A stretch of 64,000 nt of DNA. Source: Methylomonas rapida. GTDB lineage: Bacteria; Pseudomonadota; Gammaproteobacteria; Methylococcales; Methylomonadaceae. Shown piece by piece: positions 557 to 10,492 of this stretch. A program made the position numbers and the translations under genes. The notes beneath the pieces are model-generated. The model did no database searches. It had not been told where the DNA came from and was given only the letters and a program-made list of their open reading frames with translations. Position 1 is the first letter of the stretch; the number at the start of each line of letters is the position of its first letter. The DNA lies in NCBI RefSeq assembly GCF_024360925.2, contig NZ_CP113517.1:3534001-3598000 (forward strand). Direction: 5' to 3'.

Positions 557-985
557 TCAAGCGGGTACGGCCAAAATTACCGCGCCAGCCTTGAATGTGG
601 CCGTGACGGCCTGCCCTTTGCGCAGCCCCAGGGTTTCGACGCTGTCGTTGGTCACCGTCGCCGCGACTTTGTCGCCGCCGGCCAGCTCGATGTCGATTTC
701 GGAATTGACCGCGCCGGGTTTGACCTCGGTGACCGTGCCCGGCAGTTGGTTACGCGCCGAAATCTTGTAACCGCCAAAATCGGTGATGATGATGACTTGC
801 GGCGCCTTGACCAGAGCCACGACCTCCAGCCCGGCCTTGATGCCGAGTTTTTCCACCGACTCCTTGGTGACCGAGGCGACGAGGGTTTCGCCGCCTTTCA
901 AACCGACATGCACTTCGGCATTGACGGCCCCGATGATGACTTCGCTGACGGTGCCGCTAAATTGGTTACGCGCGCTTGCTTGCAT
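557..985 (-). CDS. Molbindin: two-domain Mop (TOBE) molybdate-binding protein
   Basis: 142 aa made of two tandem Mop domains, each beginning with SARNQ-(F/L)-x-GTV and followed by a V-x-L-x-GG core (about residues 3-67 and 74-139). Mop proteins bind molybdate or tungstate oxyanions in the cytoplasm and serve as storage or buffering proteins. The two domains resemble the two Mop domains of the ModE regulator at 6038. The SD-like GAGAGG lies just before the ATG. It is separated from the di-heme gene upstream by about 155 bp that carry a ModE-type operator, so it probably has its own molybdenum-responsive promoter. Confidence 0.88.
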   Translation of the reverse strand: MQASARNQFSGTVSEVIIGAVNAEVHVGLKGGETLVASVTKESVEKLGIKAGLEVVALVKAPQVIIITDFGGYKISARNQLPGTVTEVKPGAVNSEIDIELAGGDKVAATVTNDSVETLGLRKGQAVTATFKAGAVILAVPA

Positions 986-1069
986 GACTATACCTCTCGG
1001 ATTGGCTTATTAGGGATTGGGATTTGCCGGTTCGCATGCCCCGAAGCGGGCCGCTAAACGGCAACCCAG

Positions 1070-1100
1070 TTTATACCGCTATTCCCCAAATTAAATAACG
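1070..1100 (-). promoter_or_regulatory. ModE-type operator over the molbindin promoter
   Basis: On the plus strand, 1077-1100 reads CGCTAT-N12-ATAACG, a 24-nt inverted repeat of the same length and half-site type as the E. coli modA operator (CGTTAT-N12-ATAACG). On the minus strand it ends next to a -10-like TATAAA (1070-1075), with TTATTT 17 nt upstream as a weak -35. The box therefore spans the -35/-10 interval, about 92 bp upstream of the molbindin ATG, which fits repression by ModE when molybdate is plentiful. Function is inferred from sequence only. Confidence 0.62.
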
Positions 1101-1141
1101 TTTTTCCGAAATGCAGCATTGCGCTTGGCGAAACAAGCACG

Positions 1142-2485
1142 TCACAGCGAGCGTAAAAACGCCAGTAATGCCTCGCGTTTGGCGGATGGCAAATCAATGA
1201 AGACTTGCCGGCTGGCTGCCGCTTCGCCGCCATGCCAAAGCACCGCCTCGGTCAGATTTCTGGCTCTGCCGTCGTGCAAGAATTGACTGTGTTCGTTGAT
1301 CGCTTCGATCAGCCCGATGCCCCACAGCGGCGGCGTGCGCCAATCGCGGCCGCCGGCTTCATAATCCGGCCGGCCATCCGCCAAGCCTTCGCCCATGTCG
1401 TGCAGCAATAAATCGCTGTAGGGATGAATGGTTTGCCCCGCCAACACCGGCATTTGCGGAAAATCGCCGGTGGTCAGGGTTGGAACGTGGCATACGGCAC
1501 AACCAATTTCAGCGAAGATCTTTTCTCCGGTTTGCACTACAGGATCGTCGCTACGGCGCCTAGCGGGTACTTGCAACAGGCGCAGATAGGTCAGCACGGA
1601 TTCCAATCGTTCGTTGTTCAGTTCCGGCTGCTGTAACGTTGGCGCTTGCCGGCAAGCGACTTGGACAGTGGTGCAATTTTCCTGCGGATGCAGCGGCGAG
1701 GTGATGCCCATATCGCCAATGAAGGCGCCGGCGGCTTGCTGTTTCAATGTCGCGACGTTGGCCTTGAGGCCGAAACGGCCGACGACGGTCGCGCGTTTTT
1801 CCGCGTCCCAAACTCGATTCGGCCGGCCCTGGATGCCAAACGGCTTGGCTTTGCCCGCCAAATCGATCAGGGTTTGTTCGTCCACCGCCTCCAGCAATCC
1901 CATCCCGAATACCGGTGGACCAACGCGCGGAGAAAACAGCGCATCGGCCGGCATCGGATCGTAATGCAAATCGGTAAATCGATACGCCGGCATACGCAGC
2001 TTTACGCTTTCGCCTCCCGCCAATTTAATTTCGCTTTCGCTATAGCTAACCGACACTCTGCCTTCGCCCGGCACGCCGGGAATGCCTTGTTCGTTCAGTT
2101 GATCGCCGTAAGCCGTCACCGGCAGCGGGCCACCGTGAGGCCCCTTGCCCGGCGCGCTCAGACGCACCAGCATCGAGCGCATGGCTTGCTCCGGCGTATC
2201 CGGGGCTTTGCCGCGGCCGTTTTTCGGATGGCAGGAAAGGCAGGACAGTTGGTTGTAAATCGGCCCGAGTCCGACAATGTCGCTGTCTGCGGCGGGCGGA
2301 ATCACCCAACTGGCGCGGAACAAACCACGCCCCCGCAGCGCTTGCTCGCGAATCGATGGCGAAACGCCGGCATACAGGCGGGAAAACGCCTCGCGACTGG
2401 CGTCGGCGATTTCAAAACCACTGGCATCGGCTGCCACGGCCTCGAACGCGCCCAAAAACAGCAATGCACCGGCGAGCGTTCTCAT
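1142..2485 (-). CDS. Di-heme c-type protein, DUF1111 (DHOR) family
   Basis: 447 aa with a signal peptide (about residues 1-19). Two CxxCH heme sites are visible: C82-x-x-C85-H86 (CLSCH) and C329-x-x-C332-H333 (CAVCH). The arrangement and length match the DUF1111/COG3488 periplasmic di-heme family, loosely called thiol oxidoreductases and often found beside metal-uptake genes. The biochemical reaction is not established. The ATG overlaps the stop of the upstream binding-protein gene as ATGA, so the two are translationally coupled and in one operon with the TonB receptor. A periplasmic redox step on an imported metal complex is a reasonable guess, not a demonstrated role. Confidence 0.86.
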   Translation of the reverse strand: MRTLAGALLFLGAFEAVAADASGFEIADASREAFSRLYAGVSPSIREQALRGRGLFRASWVIPPAADSDIVGLGPIYNQLSCLSCHPKNGRGKAPDTPEQAMRSMLVRLSAPGKGPHGGPLPVTAYGDQLNEQGIPGVPGEGRVSVSYSESEIKLAGGESVKLRMPAYRFTDLHYDPMPADALFSPRVGPPVFGMGLLEAVDEQTLIDLAGKAKPFGIQGRPNRVWDAEKRATVVGRFGLKANVATLKQQAAGAFIGDMGITSPLHPQENCTTVQVACRQAPTLQQPELNNERLESVLTYLRLLQVPARRRSDDPVVQTGEKIFAEIGCAVCHVPTLTTGDFPQMPVLAGQTIHPYSDLLLHDMGEGLADGRPDYEAGGRDWRTPPLWGIGLIEAINEHSQFLHDGRARNLTEAVLWHGGEAAASRQVFIDLPSAKREALLAFLRSL

Positions 2486-3753
2486 AGCTGCGCGGCGGCA
2501 TTCAGCAACTGTTCGGCTTCGTCGTAGCGCTTGCGCATCGCTTCAAACCACTGCCTGTCTTTTGCTTCCGTGTTGGCATCGCCGCCGCGCTTGGCGAACA
2601 GGGCTTGCAAATCTTGTTCATGCGCCTGTTCGGCGCTGATCGGCGCGCCGGTCAACAGTGCCCGAATACGCTGGGCCTTAGCCACGTCGCCGCCCCGCGC
2701 TTCCCATTGGCGTAAGCGATCAAATAATGCCTGAACACGGGGCCAATGTTCGGTAAACATCGCGTCGAATACCGCATTGTTCAAACCCAGGCGCGGCAAG
2801 GCCGTTTCCGGGTCATAAATGACGGGATGGGCCAGCGACGCGGCAAACGGATCGAAATAGTCCGCCGGTTTGGCACCGTAGACATCGGACCGTACCGGCA
2901 ATTTACGAATATCGGCATGAAACAGCAGCTTTTGTCCCGCCTCCGATAACACGAAGGCCAAGAATTGTCTGGCCGCATCGCTATGTTTGCTGGCTCGGGT
3001 AATGGCGATATGGGCCGGCGAATACGCCACCGGTTGCGCGTAACTGAATTGCAACGGCGCACCGTTGGCAATCGCCGACGCGGTGAAAAAATCGATGGTC
3101 GGCGCGATGCCGCGCTCGCCTGCCCCGAGAATGTCGGTGACGAAGGTCGAGCCGGCTTCGACCGGCCTGGCATTGGCGACAATCTCCGCCAGCAGCGCCC
3201 AACCCTGGTCCCAACCGTATTGTTGCAACACGCTGTCTATCATCATCGGTGCAAAACCCACCTTGGACGGCACCGGCAAAGCCAGATGGCCTTGGTAGCG
3301 TTTATCGGCCAGATCTTGCCAGGTGCCGGGAAGCGGCAAACCGTGCATTTTGAGATACCTCGGATTGACAGCGAAGCCGTAGCCGGCCATCTCCGTGGCC
3401 CGATAGAAACCGTCCCGGTCCGCTAACGGCAGCGCGCCCAAATGCGTGGGCAGGCCCTGATCGGCCAAGACCAGCTTCTGCCAGGCGCCTTGCCGCTTGA
3501 GCGCTTGAAAAGTGCGCATCGTCGCTGACCAATACACATCGACACCGCCTTGTTCCGGCTGGCTTAGATACGGTAAGGCATCGTGCGGCATGCGCCAAAG
3601 GATTTGTACGTCGATATCAGGGTGCGCCTGTTCGAAAGCGGTTTCGAAACGGGATACCACCTCTTCCGGATAAGCCGTCAGCACGGTCAAGCTTTCCTTG
3701 GCTTGCGCAACAACGCTCCACAGCGCGACGATCAAAACATAGGCTAAGCGCAT
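2482..3753 (-). CDS. Periplasmic ABC-type substrate-binding protein without visible permease
   Basis: 423 aa from the ATG at 3753, chosen because it begins a clear signal peptide (MRLAYVLIVALWSVVAQA) and has AAGGAG at proper spacing; a start 21 nt further upstream would put seven polar residues before it. The fold looks like the Fe3+/spermidine-type solute-binding class (ESLTVLTAYPEEVVSRFETAF at the N-terminus, GSTFVTDILGAGE in the middle), with about 80 extra residues at the C-terminus. No ABC permease or ATPase gene lies nearby, so it may hand ligand to a transporter elsewhere or work with the neighbouring receptor and di-heme protein. The ligand cannot be read from the sequence; ModE control suggests molybdate or a metal chelate. 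Confidence 0.78.
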   Translation of the reverse strand: MRLAYVLIVALWSVVAQAKESLTVLTAYPEEVVSRFETAFEQAHPDIDVQILWRMPHDALPYLSQPEQGGVDVYWSATMRTFQALKRQGAWQKLVLADQGLPTHLGALPLADRDGFYRATEMAGYGFAVNPRYLKMHGLPLPGTWQDLADKRYQGHLALPVPSKVGFAPMMIDSVLQQYGWDQGWALLAEIVANARPVEAGSTFVTDILGAGERGIAPTIDFFTASAIANGAPLQFSYAQPVAYSPAHIAITRASKHSDAARQFLAFVLSEAGQKLLFHADIRKLPVRSDVYGAKPADYFDPFAASLAHPVIYDPETALPRLGLNNAVFDAMFTEHWPRVQALFDRLRQWEARGGDVAKAQRIRALLTGAPISAEQAHEQDLQALFAKRGGDANTEAKDRQWFEAMRKRYDEAEQLLNAAAQL

Positions 3754-3770
3754 TTTCTCTCTCCTTGGGC

Positions 3771-5804
3771 TCAATAGCGCAGATTCAGGTTGGCAAAATA
3801 ATTGCGGCCTTGCTCGGGAAAGCCTTCCTGATAGGCATAGTTTTCGTCGGCCACGTTATTGACGCCAAATTCCGCATTGAAGTCATCGCGCACTGGAAAT
3901 GTCGCTTTCAGGTTGGCCACGACGAAATCGCCCGCCACCCGCGCGCCAATGGTGTCGCTGAAGCGCGCCGAATTGTATTCCGCGCTGGCCAGCAGCCTCA
4001 GGTATTTCAACGGCTGGTACTCGACCGAGGCGAAGACTTTGTGCTTGATGGTATCCAGCGGCAGGATGTCCGGGTTGGTAATGTTGTTGCGGTCCAGCCA
4101 GGTGTAATTGGCATGCAGGCGCCATTGTTCGTCGATGCTGGCCGTGGCGAATAGTTCGATGCCCAGGTTTTCCTGCTCGCCAATGTTTTGTTGCTGAAAA
4201 CAGCGCGCATTGAGCCCTTGCGACTGACAGAAATTGCTATCCAGCGTGACCTCTTCGATTGCGCTGTCGATTTGGTTGAAGAACAAGGCACTACCGTAAT
4301 CGAGCATGCCCCATGCCTTGCCGTCGAAACCGATTTCATAGTTCAAGGCTTTTTCCGCTTGCAAATCGGGACTTGGTAACGCGGTGCCCAAACGAAACGA
4401 GTAGCGGTCCTTGATGGTAGGGAAACGGGTCTTGTGAGCCAGGCTGGCGTGTATGACAAAATCCTTGAACCATTCGTAATACGCGGCGCCCTGGGCGTTG
4501 TAAGCATCCTTGTTGCTGAGCGGAAAAGTCTGCATCGAAGTACCGGTCCAGTTTTCGGCTTGCAGCCTGTGCTGACGTTCGTAACTGGCGCCCACTACGA
4601 AACGCAAGGCGTCGGTCGGCGTGTAGCTGTCCTCGATGGCATAGGAAAAGTATTCGTCGGCGGAACGTTCTTCCGGCGATTTGGGCCGGGTGTTGACGTA
4701 ATCCGGCGTATTCCGGTTGTCGAACTCGCGGTGTACATCCTGCTTATAACTGAATCCCAGCTTTAGCTCGTGCTGGTCGAACCAGGTGTTGATGTATTCG
4801 AGGCCGGCGCCGAAGGTGTAATCGTTGTATTGGCTGTCGAACGCATACGGCCGGGTGATGCTGTTGTAATTTGGGTTATCGAAAGACATCAGGCCGTTCT
4901 TGAAGGTATCGTGATACGCGCGCAGTTTGACCGTATGCACATCTGCGAATTGCGTGCGCGAGACGAAGAACACGCTTTCTTTGTCCCAATAAGGCCAGCG
5001 CCAATAGCGGGTTTGTACGCTTCTATCCGTGCCGGTGTAGGGCGGCGTGTCTTTTTCCCCTTTTTGGGTATTGAAACCGACCGCGTATTCGTCTGTGTCG
5101 TTGGGGGTAATGCCTACCTTGACGCTGCCCTTGTAATCGGTGTTTCCGGAATTTTCCCGAATGCCTCCGTCTTCGTAAGCCGTGAGACTGAAATCCTCGG
5201 ATAAACGCCAAAACTGTCTGTCCAGGAAAGAAAAACCACCTTGAATGTAGCCCCAGCCTTGGTTCGAGCCGATATTCAGCGCGGTTTGGTAATAGTTGTC
5301 GTCGAAGCGGGAATCCATACCCATGCCAACCTTCAAATCGGCTTCCAACACTTTGGTCGGACGCCGGCTGATCAAATTGATGCTGCCGCCCAAGGTATTC
5401 GGGCCATACATGACCGAGGCGTTACCCTTGCTGACGTCGATTTGCCCGATGTCGAAGGTCGTGAATCGATTCAAGTCGACATTGCCGTCGTAAGGCACGT
5501 AAACCGGTATGCCGTCCATGAACAACGGCACCTGCCGGGAATTGAAGCCGCGAATGAAAATCAGGCGCTCGTTGCGTTGACCGAGATTTTGAATGGATAC
5601 GCCCGGCAAAAGATTCAACGCCGAAGCCACGTCGTTGCGGTTGTAGCGGCTGATGTCCTCGGCGGAGATGACTTCCTTATCGACGTCAAGCGTCTGATTG
5701 GCGCCGCCATTGACTTCGACGATACCTAATTGAAAACTGTCTTCTTCGGCCACGGCAAAGGGCGGCAAGGTTGCCAGCGTGAAAAATAGCAAAGGGATAC
5801 GCAT
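3771..5804 (-). CDS. TonB-dependent outer-membrane receptor, ModE-controlled
   Basis: 677 aa from the ATG at 5804, which starts a signal peptide (MRIPLLFFTLATLPPFAVA) and is preceded by GCAGGT; the longer reading adds 15 unlikely residues. A plug domain (about 35-150) contains RGFNSRQVPLFMDGIPV and VMYGPNTLGGSINL, followed by a 22-strand-type barrel ending in the aromatic residues NLNLRY. It should import a chelate across the outer membrane using TonB energy. First gene of the operon with the binding protein (17-nt gap) and the di-heme protein. There is no Fur box upstream; a ModE-like operator covers the promoter, which points to molybdenum or a molybdophore rather than iron as the substrate (inference). 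Confidence 0.85.
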   Translation of the reverse strand: MRIPLLFFTLATLPPFAVAEEDSFQLGIVEVNGGANQTLDVDKEVISAEDISRYNRNDVASALNLLPGVSIQNLGQRNERLIFIRGFNSRQVPLFMDGIPVYVPYDGNVDLNRFTTFDIGQIDVSKGNASVMYGPNTLGGSINLISRRPTKVLEADLKVGMGMDSRFDDNYYQTALNIGSNQGWGYIQGGFSFLDRQFWRLSEDFSLTAYEDGGIRENSGNTDYKGSVKVGITPNDTDEYAVGFNTQKGEKDTPPYTGTDRSVQTRYWRWPYWDKESVFFVSRTQFADVHTVKLRAYHDTFKNGLMSFDNPNYNSITRPYAFDSQYNDYTFGAGLEYINTWFDQHELKLGFSYKQDVHREFDNRNTPDYVNTRPKSPEERSADEYFSYAIEDSYTPTDALRFVVGASYERQHRLQAENWTGTSMQTFPLSNKDAYNAQGAAYYEWFKDFVIHASLAHKTRFPTIKDRYSFRLGTALPSPDLQAEKALNYEIGFDGKAWGMLDYGSALFFNQIDSAIEEVTLDSNFCQSQGLNARCFQQQNIGEQENLGIELFATASIDEQWRLHANYTWLDRNNITNPDILPLDTIKHKVFASVEYQPLKYLRLLASAEYNSARFSDTIGARVAGDFVVANLKATFPVRDDFNAEFGVNNVADENYAYQEGFPEQGRNYFANLNLRY

Positions 5805-5951
5805 GAATTTACCTGCTAATCGGTTTCGATGCGGATGCGCTGTTGCCAAGGTCGCTCGGACATAAATGCCCTATAATCCTGAACGGCTTCCGTATCAAAG
5901 GTTCCGGGTTGAATGAACAGGACTGGACAGCCTTGCCCTGTGACAGAAGGG

Positions 5952-5985
5952 ATTTTAATTTCGTTATGTATTCGTGTAAATAACG
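5952..5985 (-). promoter_or_regulatory. Receptor-operon promoter with overlapping ModE operator
   Basis: Minus-strand promoter: -35 TTTACA (plus 5975-5980) and -10 TAAAAT (5952-5957), separated by exactly 17 bp. The operator CGTTAT-N12-ATAACG occupies 5962-5985; it is 24 nt long with perfect 6-bp half-sites extended to TCGTTAT/ATAACGA, and overlaps the -35 and spacer. It lies between the divergent receptor operon and modE (start 6038), so it could repress both. Predicted 5' leader to the receptor ATG is about 140 nt. Identification is by match to the E. coli ModE box. Confidence 0.75.
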
Positions 5986-6037
5986 ATACAGGAAACAGCT
6001 TATTCACTGATCGAGCACTAAATTATCCAGGAGCGCC

Positions 6038-6856
6038 GTGCTTATTACTGACCGCATCACTCAACACACTGCCCCCATGGCCTTGGTCGAAGCGGAATTG
6101 CGCCTGGCAGGCGTGCTGGACACTCGCATGATCGGCTTATTGCAAGCCATAGACCAAACGGGCTCGATCAACCAGGCGGCGAAACAGATGGGCTTGAGTT
6201 ACAAGGGCGCCTGGCAAATCATCGAGCGCGCCAACAACCTGGCGCCGAAAGTGTTGATTGCCACCGCGATTGGCGGCAGCAAGGGCGGCGGCACCTGCCT
6301 GACCGAAGCCGGCAAATCCTTGGTGCATTTGTTTGCCCAACTGGAACAACAACATCAGCAGTTTCTGGCGGAACTGAATCGCAGCCTGGCTGCCGACCCC
6401 GATACTTTATTGTTGTTGCAGCGTTTGGTCGTAAAAACCAGCGCCCGCAACCAGTTGTTCGGCACCGTGACGGCCATCGAAACCGGCGCGGTTTACGCCA
6501 AAGTGATCGTCGAGCTCAAAGGCGGCGAACACGTTGTCGTCAATATCGGCATGACGGACTTACAAGCGATGGGATTGCGGGTAGATGCCGATGCGGTAAT
6601 TTTGCTGAATCCTGCCGATATTTTATTAATCACTGACGCCGAACAGCATTACCTCGTCAGTAACCGCTTGCCCGGCCGCGTCGTTCGGATACGGCAGGAT
6701 GAAGTCAGCGCCGAGGTGATGTTGGCGTTAAGCGGCGGCGAGATGCTGAGCGTCTCCCTCACGGCACAAAGCCTAAAAAACATGTCCATAACAGAAGGAC
6801 TAAACCTGTGGGCGATATTCAACAGCCAGGCCCCTATAGTAGGAATCGATCAATAA
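6038..6856 (+). CDS. modE: ModE-family molybdenum-dependent transcription regulator
   Basis: 272 aa, GTG start preceded by AGGAG. An N-terminal winged helix (about 10-90) has the ModE-style segment GSINQAAKQMGLSYKGAW, then a linker and two Mop domains (about 132-198, starting TSARNQLFGTV, and 205-270, starting VSNRLPGRV). ModE dimers bind molybdate through the Mop domains and then bind inverted repeats of the CGTTAT/ATAACG type, usually repressing uptake genes. It is divergent from the receptor operon with a matching operator between them. The C-terminal Mop domain is less typical than the first. Length fits classical E. coli ModE (about 262 aa). Confidence 0.92.
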   Translation: MLITDRITQHTAPMALVEAELRLAGVLDTRMIGLLQAIDQTGSINQAAKQMGLSYKGAWQIIERANNLAPKVLIATAIGGSKGGGTCLTEAGKSLVHLFAQLEQQHQQFLAELNRSLAADPDTLLLLQRLVVKTSARNQLFGTVTAIETGAVYAKVIVELKGGEHVVVNIGMTDLQAMGLRVDADAVILLNPADILLITDAEQHYLVSNRLPGRVVRIRQDEVSAEVMLALSGGEMLSVSLTAQSLKNMSITEGLNLWAIFNSQAPIVGIDQ

Positions 6857-7144: not shown

Positions 7145-10100
7145 ATGAATAACTCCCTGTTCGCGCTCGCACTTGTAATGTCCTGCCTAATAGCCACTTC
7201 GGCGTCGGCCGCCAATCCTCCACCCGCCCAGCTAACCGCCGAAGCCCAACAGCAAGTCTATGGCCTGCGCGAAGCTCTGGGCCTCGATGAGAGCAGCACC
7301 TTCCAAGTACAAAACATGCGACAGGATGCCCTTGGGCAAACCCACGTCCGCATGCAGCAACTTTACAAGGGTATCCGTATCTGGGGCGGCGAAATCATCA
7401 CGCACACTCAGGCCAACCGGATGGCACAGCCGCCTACCTCCTCACTGAAAAAGGACATTCGGCTAGACACCCAACCCAAACTCTCGACAACGGACGTACT
7501 GGCCGTTGTCGAAAAAGACCATGCCCCCAGCCCCCGTTTTCTCATCCAGCCGACAACCGAGCTGGTCATTTACCCGGAAACCGAACGGCGCGCCTTAGTG
7601 CGCAAGGCCCTGTCGCACGGCAAGGAAGCAACCGCCGAAGATTTCGTGACCGAAGTAACAGGCTACCGGCTCGCCTACCATGTCCATACCGAACGCGAAA
7701 ATCCGGGCGACACTCAACACATCGACTATTTGATCGATGCACAGACGGGCGCGATCATCGAAAAGTGGGATAGTTTGATGACCGCCAATACCCTGGGCAC
7801 CGGCAAAAGCCAATACAGCGGTACCGTGCAGCTCAACACCAACAGCACGGCCACAGGTTTCGAACTGCGGGATTTGACCCGGCCCTTCAGCGGCGGCAAC
7901 GTGGTTTACAACCTGGATCACTCGACTTCCGGCACAGGCACTATTTATCAGGACGCCGACGACGACTGGGGCGATGGCGCCAATTTCAAGGAAGAACCCG
8001 AACCGACCACCTCGGCCAACGGCCAAACCGCGGCGGTCGATGCCGCTCATGGCCTGCAAATCACCTGGGACATGTTTAAAAATGTATTCGGGCGCAACGG
8101 TATCGATGACCAAGGCAAACCCACCTACGCTCGCGTGCATTATGATTATGCCTACGACAATGCCTTTTATTCAGACTATTGCATGTGCATCACCTATGGC
8201 GATGGCACCAAGTTACAAACCTTGACGTCAATTGATGTGGCCGCCCACGAATTCGCGCATGGGGTTTGTTCGACATCGGCGAATCTGATTTACAGCAAGG
8301 AATCCGGTGGACTGAACGAAGCCAATTCGGACATCATGGGAACCATGGCCGAATTCTACGCGCGCGGCGCCAACGGCAAAGGTAGCATCATTCCCGACAC
8401 GGGCGGAAACTGGACCCACGGCGAACAGATCACCACGCCCGCCTATCCATTGAAAATGCGCTTCATGTATAAACCCAGCAAGGATGGCAAGAGCGCCGAT
8501 GCCTGGAGCCCGACCTTGCAAAACCTGGACGTGCATTACAGCTCGGGACCGATGAATCGCGCGTTTTACTTCCTCAGCCAAGGCGCCACCACCAGCGGCG
8601 AAACCTCGTCTAACTATCTGCCGCAAGGCATGAAAGGCATAGGCAACGACAAGGCGGCCAAGATCTGGTATCGCGCGTTGACGACTTATATGACCTCCTC
8701 CACCGATTATCTGGGCGCGCGAATTGCCAACATCCAGGCGGCCCGGGATTTGTTTCCAGCTGGCGGAGCGGAGGAAATCGCGGTTTGGAACGCCTTTGCC
8801 GCGATCAATGTCGGCGGCGCCTGGAGCGGTCCGGACAGTCCGCCGACCGTCAGCGCCCATGTCGTCGGTGACAAAGGTATGCTGACCTTCAATGCTTCCG
8901 CCAGCGACGACAAGGGTATCGTCAAGATGGATTTTCTGGTGGACGGTAAATTGGCCGGTACGAAAACCGCGGCACCCTACACAATGACTTACGATTCCAT
9001 CATGGAAGACGATGGCCTGCATACCCTGGTTGCCAAGGCCACCGATACCACCGGTCAATACACCAATGCCACGGTGCCGTTTACCATTGCCAACGGCCAA
9101 TTGATCAAAAATGGCAGCTTCGAAAAAGGCTACGGCGTGGGCTGGTCCAACACCAATGGCATGCAGATTGGCGCGATTTTGCGGCAAACGCCTTACGACG
9201 GCACCAAGATGGCCAAGTTTTGCGGCATGGGCTCGCAAATGAGCGTGGCGCTTTTTCAGTCCGTCATGCTCCCAGCCACTGCCAATTCGGCCACGTTGAG
9301 CTATGCACTTCACATCGACACCCAGGAATCGACCAAGACGGCTGCTCGCGACACCCTGACAGTACAGATTCGCAACGCCGCCGGCACGATTTTGAAAACC
9401 CTGGCGACACACAGCAATCTGGATGCTGCGGTGGGTTACAAATTGTTCAGTCATGATGTTGGCGCCTACAAAGGGCAAACCCTTCAGGTTTATTTCCTGG
9501 GGGCGGAAGACTCGGGCGCAGCCACCGGCTTCATATTGGACAAGGTCAATCTGAACATCAGCGGCGATAGCGAAATTGACGACATCCCTCCCAGCGTGAA
9601 CGCCAGCGTCAGCGGCAGCAGCGGCATGATTACCTTGTCTGCCCAAGCCACCGATAACGTCGGCGTCGTAAAAGTGGAATTTTATGTCGATGACATGCTA
9701 AAAGGCAGCGATACGTCCGCCCCCTATGCGGTGCAGCTGGATAGTACTTCGTTAGCCGATGGGAACCATAGGCTGAAAGCCAAAGCCTATGACTCGGCAG
9801 GAAATATCGGAAGCTCGGACAGCGTGATTTTTAACATCGACCATAGCGTCATCGACACAGAGGCACCGACCATTACCGTCAGCCAAACCGGCAACAGCGG
9901 CTCCATCACGTTAAATGCTTCAGCGTCCGACAATATTGGCGTGACCAAAGTGGAGTTCTATGTAGATGGCGCCCCCAAAGGCACGGACACCAGCGCGCCA
10001 TTCAGCATGGTTCTGGATTCTCTGACGCTGAGCAATGGCAATCACCAGTTACAAGGCAAGGCCTACGATGCTGCCGGCAATGTCGGCAGCTCCAACGTCG

Positions 10101-10492
10101 TCAGTTTTAACATCGATAACGGCGGCGGAACCGATAACAGCTATACCGAAATGGAGAACAACGGCACGACCAAAACCGCCAACATCGTTGGAGACTCGGT
10201 AACCAAGATCACTGGCTTTATCGGCACAGCCACGGACCATGATGTGTTCGCCATCAATGTTGCCCCCGGTCGCACGTTGACGGTGAACATGAAGGGTCCG
10301 GCCCGGGATTATGACTTATACTTGCTCAGCAGTGCCGGTAAGACCCTAAAAACCAGCGCCAATGTCGGTTCCACCGAAACGGTGACCTATAAAAATGCCA
10401 GTACATCGTCTGCCCGTTTTTATATCAAGGTCGTCGCTTTTGGTGGCGCCAATAGTGCTAGTGAGCCCTATATGCTTAGCCTGAATCGATGA
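7145..10492 (+). CDS. Secreted M4 (thermolysin-like) metalloprotease with Ig-like and PPC domains
   Basis: 1115 aa. Signal peptide (about 1-22), FTP and PepSY-type propeptide (about 35-215), then the M4 catalytic domain: zinc site H368-E369-x-x-H372 (HEFAHG) with third ligand E392 twenty residues later (GGLNEANSD), and a DVHYSSGPMNRAFY segment carrying the second catalytic His. After the protease come three Ig-like repeats (about 565-645, 815-897, 905-990) sharing a (V/I)(T/V)K(V/M)(E/D)F(Y/L)VD core, with a jelly-roll-like segment between the first and second, and a pre-peptidase C-terminal domain (about 1000-1115). Probably exported by type II secretion and self-processed to degrade extracellular protein. 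The extra modules make it roughly twice the length of plain thermolysins. Confidence 0.93.
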   Translation: MNNSLFALALVMSCLIATSASAANPPPAQLTAEAQQQVYGLREALGLDESSTFQVQNMRQDALGQTHVRMQQLYKGIRIWGGEIITHTQANRMAQPPTSSLKKDIRLDTQPKLSTTDVLAVVEKDHAPSPRFLIQPTTELVIYPETERRALVRKALSHGKEATAEDFVTEVTGYRLAYHVHTERENPGDTQHIDYLIDAQTGAIIEKWDSLMTANTLGTGKSQYSGTVQLNTNSTATGFELRDLTRPFSGGNVVYNLDHSTSGTGTIYQDADDDWGDGANFKEEPEPTTSANGQTAAVDAAHGLQITWDMFKNVFGRNGIDDQGKPTYARVHYDYAYDNAFYSDYCMCITYGDGTKLQTLTSIDVAAHEFAHGVCSTSANLIYSKESGGLNEANSDIMGTMAEFYARGANGKGSIIPDTGGNWTHGEQITTPAYPLKMRFMYKPSKDGKSADAWSPTLQNLDVHYSSGPMNRAFYFLSQGATTSGETSSNYLPQGMKGIGNDKAAKIWYRALTTYMTSSTDYLGARIANIQAARDLFPAGGAEEIAVWNAFAAINVGGAWSGPDSPPTVSAHVVGDKGMLTFNASASDDKGIVKMDFLVDGKLAGTKTAAPYTMTYDSIMEDDGLHTLVAKATDTTGQYTNATVPFTIANGQLIKNGSFEKGYGVGWSNTNGMQIGAILRQTPYDGTKMAKFCGMGSQMSVALFQSVMLPATANSATLSYALHIDTQESTKTAARDTLTVQIRNAAGTILKTLATHSNLDAAVGYKLFSHDVGAYKGQTLQVYFLGAEDSGAATGFILDKVNLNISGDSEIDDIPPSVNASVSGSSGMITLSAQATDNVGVVKVEFYVDDMLKGSDTSAPYAVQLDSTSLADGNHRLKAKAYDSAGNIGSSDSVIFNIDHSVIDTEAPTITVSQTGNSGSITLNASASDNIGVTKVEFYVDGAPKGTDTSAPFSMVLDSLTLSNGNHQLQGKAYDAAGNVGSSNVVSFNIDNGGGTDNSYTEMENNGTTKTANIVGDSVTKITGFIGTATDHDVFAINVAPGRTLTVNMKGPARDYDLYLLSSAGKTLKTSANVGSTETVTYKNASTSSARFYIKVVAFGGANSASEPYMLSLNR

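Follow-up and report, generated by a model that had tools for sequence, protein, structure and literature searches.

A candidate ModE-controlled, TonB-dependent locus for molybdenum or tungsten acquisition in Methylomonas rapida

Molybdate uptake in bacteria is usually described as a passive process via porins, followed by ModABC. A stretch of 64,000 nucleotides of the Methylomonas rapida genome (contig NZ_CP113517.1, positions 3,534,001 to 3,598,000; referred to as the window) raises the question why a gene for a TonB-dependent receptor (TBDR) should lie divergent from modE, together with genes for an orphan periplasmic solute-binding protein (PBP), a DUF1111-type di-heme protein (DHOR) and a molbindin. 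Gene content and order, ModE boxes, protein folds and the linkage to modE/modABC and tupABC-type genes in relatives argue that the locus probably encodes a ModE-repressed, TonB-dependent acquisition system for molybdenum (Mo) or tungsten (W). TonB-dependent metal uptake is already known; new are the proposed Mo/W target, the control by ModE and the gene composition.

ModE boxes and gene layout of the locus

The ModE consensus of E. coli is given in the excerpts of PMC545781 as ATCGNTATATA-N6-TATATANCGAT, and in palindromic form as CGnTATATA-N6-TATATAnCG. Sites were scored against the core of this palindrome with weights of our own (maximum 30). The ModE-like operators originally predicted on both promoters turned out to be the two top-scoring sites of the 64 kb (28/30 in the TBDR/modE region and 24/30 upstream of molbindin), followed by a third site with 21.5. 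The former is the sole site without mismatch in the 4.59-Mb genome, which consists of one contig, and the sole site with one mismatch (3521358-3521381) is located ~80 bases before the gene of an Alginate_exp-type porin heading the modABC operon, 12.6 kb outside the window. Allowing up to three mismatches, 12 sites were obtained genome-wide compared to 33 in the reversed control, counted over all mismatch numbers together; weak sites therefore mean little, and the molbindin box with its three mismatches is consequently assigned by position and not by score. Between 5780 and 6080 only a single promoter-like site was detected (shuffles average 0.5). This putative TBDR promoter is overlapped by the operator, as would be expected of a repressor site.

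All five genes of the original prediction were recovered where it had placed them (Table 1). Transcription on the minus strand (557-5804) proceeds in the order TBDR, PBP, DHOR and molbindin. The DHOR and PBP genes share 4 bases, and PBP lies closely 3′ of TBDR, which argues for a single TBDR-PBP-DHOR operon, and the molbindin gene starts 156 bases past DHOR behind its own box. The starts at 3753 (PBP) and 5804 (TBDR, likely ATG) are our reading, the list of open reading frames (ORFs) opening at TTG 3774 and TTG 5849, respectively. DHOR is probably exported, and the molbindin is a probable cytoplasmic molybdate/tungstate-binding protein. The ModE gene additionally matched PRK10676 (E 5e-43) and TIGR00637, both under their cut-offs. 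Neither an ABC permease or ATPase gene nor an imelysin gene is present among the five genes.

Table 1: Features of the locus (window coordinates; operators and promoter are predictions)
Feature	Position	Strand	Evidence
Molbindin, two-domain (Mop/TOBE x2)	557..985	-	PF03459 E 2.3e-39, TIGR00638 E 2.9e-47, two stretches
Predicted ModE-like operator upstream of molbindin, CGTTATTTA-N6-GGAATAGCG	1077..1100	-	24/30, 3 mismatches to strict pattern
DHOR (DUF1111), di-heme c-type protein	1142..2485	-	PF06537 E 6.5e-89; two CxxCH motifs
PBP, orphan periplasmic solute-binding protein	2482..3753	-	PF13343/PF13531/PF01547
TBDR, TonB-dependent receptor	3771..5804	-	Plug PF07715 E 1.3e-23, barrel PF00593 E 7.1e-32
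Putative sigma-70-like promoter of the TBDR operon, TTTACA-17-TAAAAT	5952..5980	-	consensus match only, 10/12; operator overlaps
Predicted ModE operator, CGTTATGTA-TTCGTG-TAAATAACG	5962..5985	.	28/30, 0 mismatches; divergent TBDR/modE promoter region
ModE, winged helix and two TOBE/Mop domains	6038..6856	+	TIGR00638 above cut-off

The own genome contains one full ModE as far as found, one molbindin, one further TOBE match at modC, one ModA and three PF00384 molybdopterin enzymes; DHOR is its only PF06537 match. Neither nifD nor the condensation domain PF00668 of nonribosomal peptide synthetases (NRPS) gave a match in this genome. A Mo nitrogenase and a self-made NRPS molybdophore were therefore rejected as unlikely reasons for the locus in M. 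rapida, though chelators might be made by other routes. Adjoining modE, a thermolysin-like M4 metalloprotease with Big_7 repeats is encoded (7145-10492), with no sign of an operon link.

Conservation in relatives and linkage to molybdenum and tungsten genes

When a PBP alignment was used to scan named genomes, 104 stretches were matched and 71 loci obtained (designated by L and a number), some of them near copies that were counted apart. In 67 of these, PBP is flanked by TBDR on its upstream side and by DHOR on its downstream side. Two of the remaining loci (L025, L073) lie at a contig edge, L020 shows PBP-DHOR without TBDR and carries two boxes before PBP (28.5 and 25.5), and in L053 the only TBDR-family match is some kilobases off on the other strand. 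DHOR follows PBP in 69/71 loci, with both misses at contig ends; broken frames occur in a few loci, e.g., L035, L049, L052, L084 and L085. Carriers include Methylobacter, Methylicorpusculum, Gallionella, Sideroxydans, Zoogloea, Azoarcus, Dechloromonas, Methylobacillus, Herminiimonas, Pandoraea and Pseudomonas. The system spans beta- and gammaproteobacteria as well as Azospirillum, the plasmids of which show the order PBP-DHOR-TBDR-TonB; in L117, the PBP gene is split. The Azospirillum box is weaker (21/30), though it ranks first in each of the three stretches. The original prediction had suggested looking for the order receptor, binding protein, DHOR and ModE in other Methylococcales; the carriers are not restricted to this order of bacteria. 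A second sample consisted of 370 genomes drawn evenly from the class, and PBP was matched at 1e-50 in 11 of them (own included). One of these (L121) carries TBDR-PBP-DHOR, with a pair of boxes (23.0 each) immediately ahead of TBDR; eight further relatives lack both TBDR and DHOR, and their sites score at most 22.5, a value that the control also reached once.

TBDR promoters could be scored in 71 cases, i.e., 65 of the 71 named loci, L088, L089, L091, L093, L094 and the window; L019, L026, L046 and L060 were too short, and L020 and L053 lack the TBDR. A box of at least 22/30 was present at 56 of these 71 promoters, compared to 0.63 expected from dinucleotide shuffles (~90-fold enrichment) and none in the reversed control. 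Among the 65 named loci, the box occurred in 23/27 with nearby Mo genes and in 27/38 without. In 39/65 it was the TBDR promoter that held the top site of the whole locus, with 1.8 expected and 6/65 in the reversed control, some ORF starts being too long in this comparison.

Linkage to Mo genes was evaluated for the 71 named loci at distances of up to 9 kb. Besides modE (28 loci), modA (27), modB (26), modC (25) and molbindin (18) were detected, and 31 loci carried at least one of modE, modA, modC and molbindin. The operon lies directly behind modABC-type genes in L045, L047, L065 and L083. In L122 (27-7281), obtained from the second sample, genes for a porin, TupA-, TupB- and TupC-type proteins, TBDR and PBP form one row. 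As the Tup matches stay below their equivalog cut-offs (TupA 219 of 400 bits, TupB 205 of 320) and WtpC is a better match to the ATPase than TupC, this row shows a link to Mo/W-type oxyanion transport in general and does not imply tungstate specificity; L122 may possibly represent a tungstate version of the system. Together, the conserved order (67/71), the boxes (56/71), the nearby Mo genes (31/71) and the Tup row support the originally predicted outer-membrane uptake locus under ModE.

Further genes accompany the operon in some of the 71 loci: a second TBDR in 10, a class-III binding protein in 6, a FecCD permease in 10 and, in 2 as well as in L090, a luciferase-like monooxygenase. A SulP permease directly behind DHOR was found in two Methylobacillus loci (L069:12660-14306 and L080:12830-14473). 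These genes suggest that complexed as well as free oxyanion forms may be handled.

Several additional features were observed around the operon. The second TBDR family, a PF01497 class-III binding protein, FecCD permease and ATPase occur near it in L055, L078, L082, L090 and L049; L078 and L082 additionally encode a globin-like protein, and L090 the luciferase-like monooxygenase. L083 contains a weaker SulP match, located on the opposite strand. In 14/71 loci, a small conserved protein of ~137 amino acids is encoded nearby (e.g., L055:6817-7275 and L078:5157-5570); the two copies scanned had no Pfam match, and in L055 and L078 a ModE box lies ahead of the gene. A DUF2478 gene is inserted between TBDR and PBP in L055 (9315-9914), and L038 and L075 have relatives of this gene close to the operon. 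In Pseudomonas-type loci (L027, L039, L043, L050, L051, L052, L058, L067, L070 and L077), two ModE boxes 140-150 bases apart precede TBDR. The modABC operon of the own genome (3517177-3521279; L110:3177-7279) begins with the gene of an outer-membrane porin of the Alginate_exp family (PF13372), preceded by the box mentioned above. Porin genes of this type were also detected in L017, L084, L088 and L089, no more than 9 kb from the operon, and in L122, where the porin gene precedes those of the tupABC type. A porin dedicated to Mo/W appears likely.

Binding protein, di-heme protein and similarity to known systems

The structural model of PBP (pLDDT 95.1) and its fold matches place the protein in the fold and sequence branch of AfuA, PgtC and PhnS2, with a helical C-terminal extension (about residues 345-430, numbered from the ORF opened at 3774). 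This fold is common to ferric-binding proteins, in which a Tyr-Tyr pair of the C-lobe provides the iron ligands of the FbpA type. In sequence, PBP is nearer to organophosphate binders, and the Tyr-Tyr of ferric-binding protein 7w3w aligns with Phe229-Phe230, a pair that is invariant across the 36 sequences of the PBP alignment; Azospirillum, outside that alignment, has Phe-Gln. The clear homology to an iron system that would have spoken against the original prediction was therefore not encountered for PBP, which lacks the iron ligands of an FbpA-type ferric binder. An identity as ModA was rejected, there being no TIGR01256 match at 1e-3. Clade-specific residues are Y35, W60, V80, E128, P167, A175 and P176. 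In the PBP tree, ABC-linked rows group together, as do the Azospirillum rows; since long branches meet there, no claim is made on the origin of the orphan clade. The organophosphate-binding relatives PgtC, AfuA and PhnS2 are permease-linked, their ABC-linked relatives lying beside a phosphoglycolate phosphatase gene in 2/4 annotated loci, whereas the PBP examined here is linked to TBDR and DHOR instead.

The DHOR model (pLDDT 87.6) showed a di-heme fold of the MauG/CcP (peroxidase) type by fold matches. Membership in the MbnH family was rejected, as neither the NCBIfam scan nor the genome search gave a TIGR04039 match at this protein. Elsewhere in the own genome, six di-heme TIGR04039-type proteins were detected, e.g., at 791571-792572 and 4385529-4386506, all of them below the cut-off. 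TIGR04052 (MbnP-type) had no match in the own genome, and the control genomes gave none either.

The nearest working analogue is methanobactin import, for which the excerpts of PMC3621798 describe a TonB transporter and a MauG-like di-heme protein together with, in some operons, a binding protein. The set MbnT-PBP-MbnH/MbnP shares with our locus the TBDR, a binding protein and the MauG/CcP-type di-heme fold; it differs in that ModE boxes are found here, DHOR belongs to PF06537 and not to TIGR04039, PBP has the AfuA/FbpA fold and no methanobactin family was matched among the window proteins scanned. The likeness is thus an analogy and not a membership. With ModABC/ModE uptake the locus has the regulator and operator type in common, the porin-modABC operon of the own genome carrying the second-best box, but ModABC acts at the inner membrane, whereas the locus would contribute energised transport across the outer membrane together with an orphan PBP distinct from ModA. 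In the imelysin-DUF1111 iron operon PA4370-4373 of P. aeruginosa, a DUF1111-type protein is likewise encoded next to proteins of metal uptake (excerpts of PMC3143127); that operon contains imelysin and is Fur-regulated, whereas the locus described here has ModE boxes and no imelysin. An outer-membrane molybdate route has been proposed for P. aeruginosa as well, consisting of a ModA secreted by the Type VI system and its imelysin-family outer-membrane partner IcmP, and the excerpts of the review (PMC8602904) name no TonB receptor of the kind found here.

The original prediction knew of no described system of such composition, and none was found in the open-licence PubMed Central (PMC) literature among the matches listed. 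The same holds for a ModE-regulated TonB receptor, which is not described in the excerpts of PMC5343134, PMC11734730, PMC3596284, PMC5554334 and PMC10781756; an earlier prediction elsewhere is possible.

Possible mechanism and competing explanations

How might the system work? When molybdate is scarce, ModE would leave the box overlapping the TBDR promoter, and TBDR, PBP and DHOR would be synthesized alongside porin-modABC. The TonB-energised TBDR would import a Mo or W species that porins supply too poorly, more likely a small complex than free molybdate. PBP would hold the complex or the released oxyanion in the periplasm, and the MauG-like DHOR might subject the complex, or else a partner, to redox chemistry and thereby free molybdate for ModA. 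ModABC would carry the molybdate inward, where molbindin would buffer it and ModE sense it. By analogy, the locus might be the Mo counterpart of methanobactin import, taking up a foreign organic Mo/W complex, with the oxyanion site of PBP inherited from organophosphate binders and DHOR oxidatively breaking the ligand so that molybdate passes to ModABC. We regard this more specific version as tentative, possible rather than probable. Salvage of released molybdenum cofactor would make up perhaps a tenth of it, as a phosphorylated pterin-dithiolene would suit both an organophosphate-type PBP and oxidative release.

Several observations weigh against a ModE-repressed Mo/W acquisition system. The nearest solved relatives of the TBDR are iron, colicin and B12 receptors, so that its sequence alone does not point to Mo. 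Chelator biosynthesis was not identified, PF00668 having been searched for in the own genome. The copy in L122 lacks DHOR and a box, demonstrating that DHOR is not always present. In thirteen of the 71 named loci, the scored region holds no box and Mo genes are likewise missing nearby. One of these (L060) is a cut contig, two (L055, L078) carry the box before a small gene heading the operon and L020 carries it before PBP, leaving nine that do not fit (L018, L022, L025, L031, L035, L054, L072, L082 and L085), among them the Thiobacillus/Parasulfuritortus loci L025, L031 and L054. The operon is also accessory, being present in 8 of the 55 genomes with full ModE (121 genomes, own included). A PBP match below 1e-100 was obtained in 8 genomes, the own one among them, and each of these has full ModE, compared to 55/121 overall; in this profile 4 weaker matches of 12 were dropped and ModE was counted by hand, and the co-occurrence is suggestive but not independent evidence.

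What else could explain the locus? The TBDR might import a free oxyanion, i.e., molybdate, tungstate or a polyoxoanion, or chiefly tungstate, without any chelate, while DHOR would have a protective or other role elsewhere, e.g., in peroxide removal. The row of TBDR, PBP, porin and TupABC-type genes in L122, which does without DHOR, would fit this explanation, as would the SulP permease behind DHOR in L069 and L080 and the missing NRPS condensation domain in the own genome; moreover, ModE/Mop proteins bind tungstate as well as molybdate. Nevertheless, an anion of such small size would be an unusual substrate of a TonB receptor, DHOR is missing behind PBP in the 71 named loci only at contig ends, and the second TBDR with a siderophore-type ABC importer in several loci fits complexes better. 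Import of the free oxyanion appears rather unlikely to us. A Mo-starvation response might also serve to import another nutrient, such as iron, that is needed when molybdoenzymes fail. Some ModE-family regulons switch to Mo-free alternatives such as alternative nitrogenases, and the receptor and PBP families hold many iron systems. A scan with a Fur consensus over 74 regions, a few of which were wrongly cut where a contig begins, yielded a slight signal (5/74 with at least 13 of 19 positions versus 1/74 in the reversed control; 1 versus 0 at 14). This signal is far weaker than that of ModE, PBP carries Phe-Phe (Phe-Gln in Azospirillum) in place of the ferric Tyr pair, nifD was not found in the own genome, and the operon sits right behind modABC in four loci and beside tupABC-type genes in L122. 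In view of the Fur-consensus scan, with no more than a slight excess, and of the lacking Tyr pair, iron was rejected as the primary explanation, and a non-Mo nutrient in general is improbable. Finally, an ordinary siderophore receptor operon next to modE by chance, with coincidental boxes, would agree with the iron or siderophore terms used for PBP and TBDR in some public records; considering the ~90-fold enrichment of boxes over 71 promoters, also without modE or modABC nearby, and a gene order conserved across classes, this is hardly credible.

If ModE-repressed, TonB-dependent Mo/W acquisition is correct, the widespread ModE-boxed operon would imply active competition for Mo or W at the outer membrane, and the gene set allows direct tests of the long-discussed uptake of chelated Mo via molybdophores. 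As Mo can become limiting for nitrate reduction, for formate oxidation and for the fixation of N2, the carriers, i.e., methanotrophs, iron oxidisers, denitrifiers and pseudomonads, matter for carbon and nitrogen cycling. Mo would then join the metals served by a TBDR together with a MauG-type enzyme, which would suggest that the opening of metal complexes in the periplasm may be a general process.

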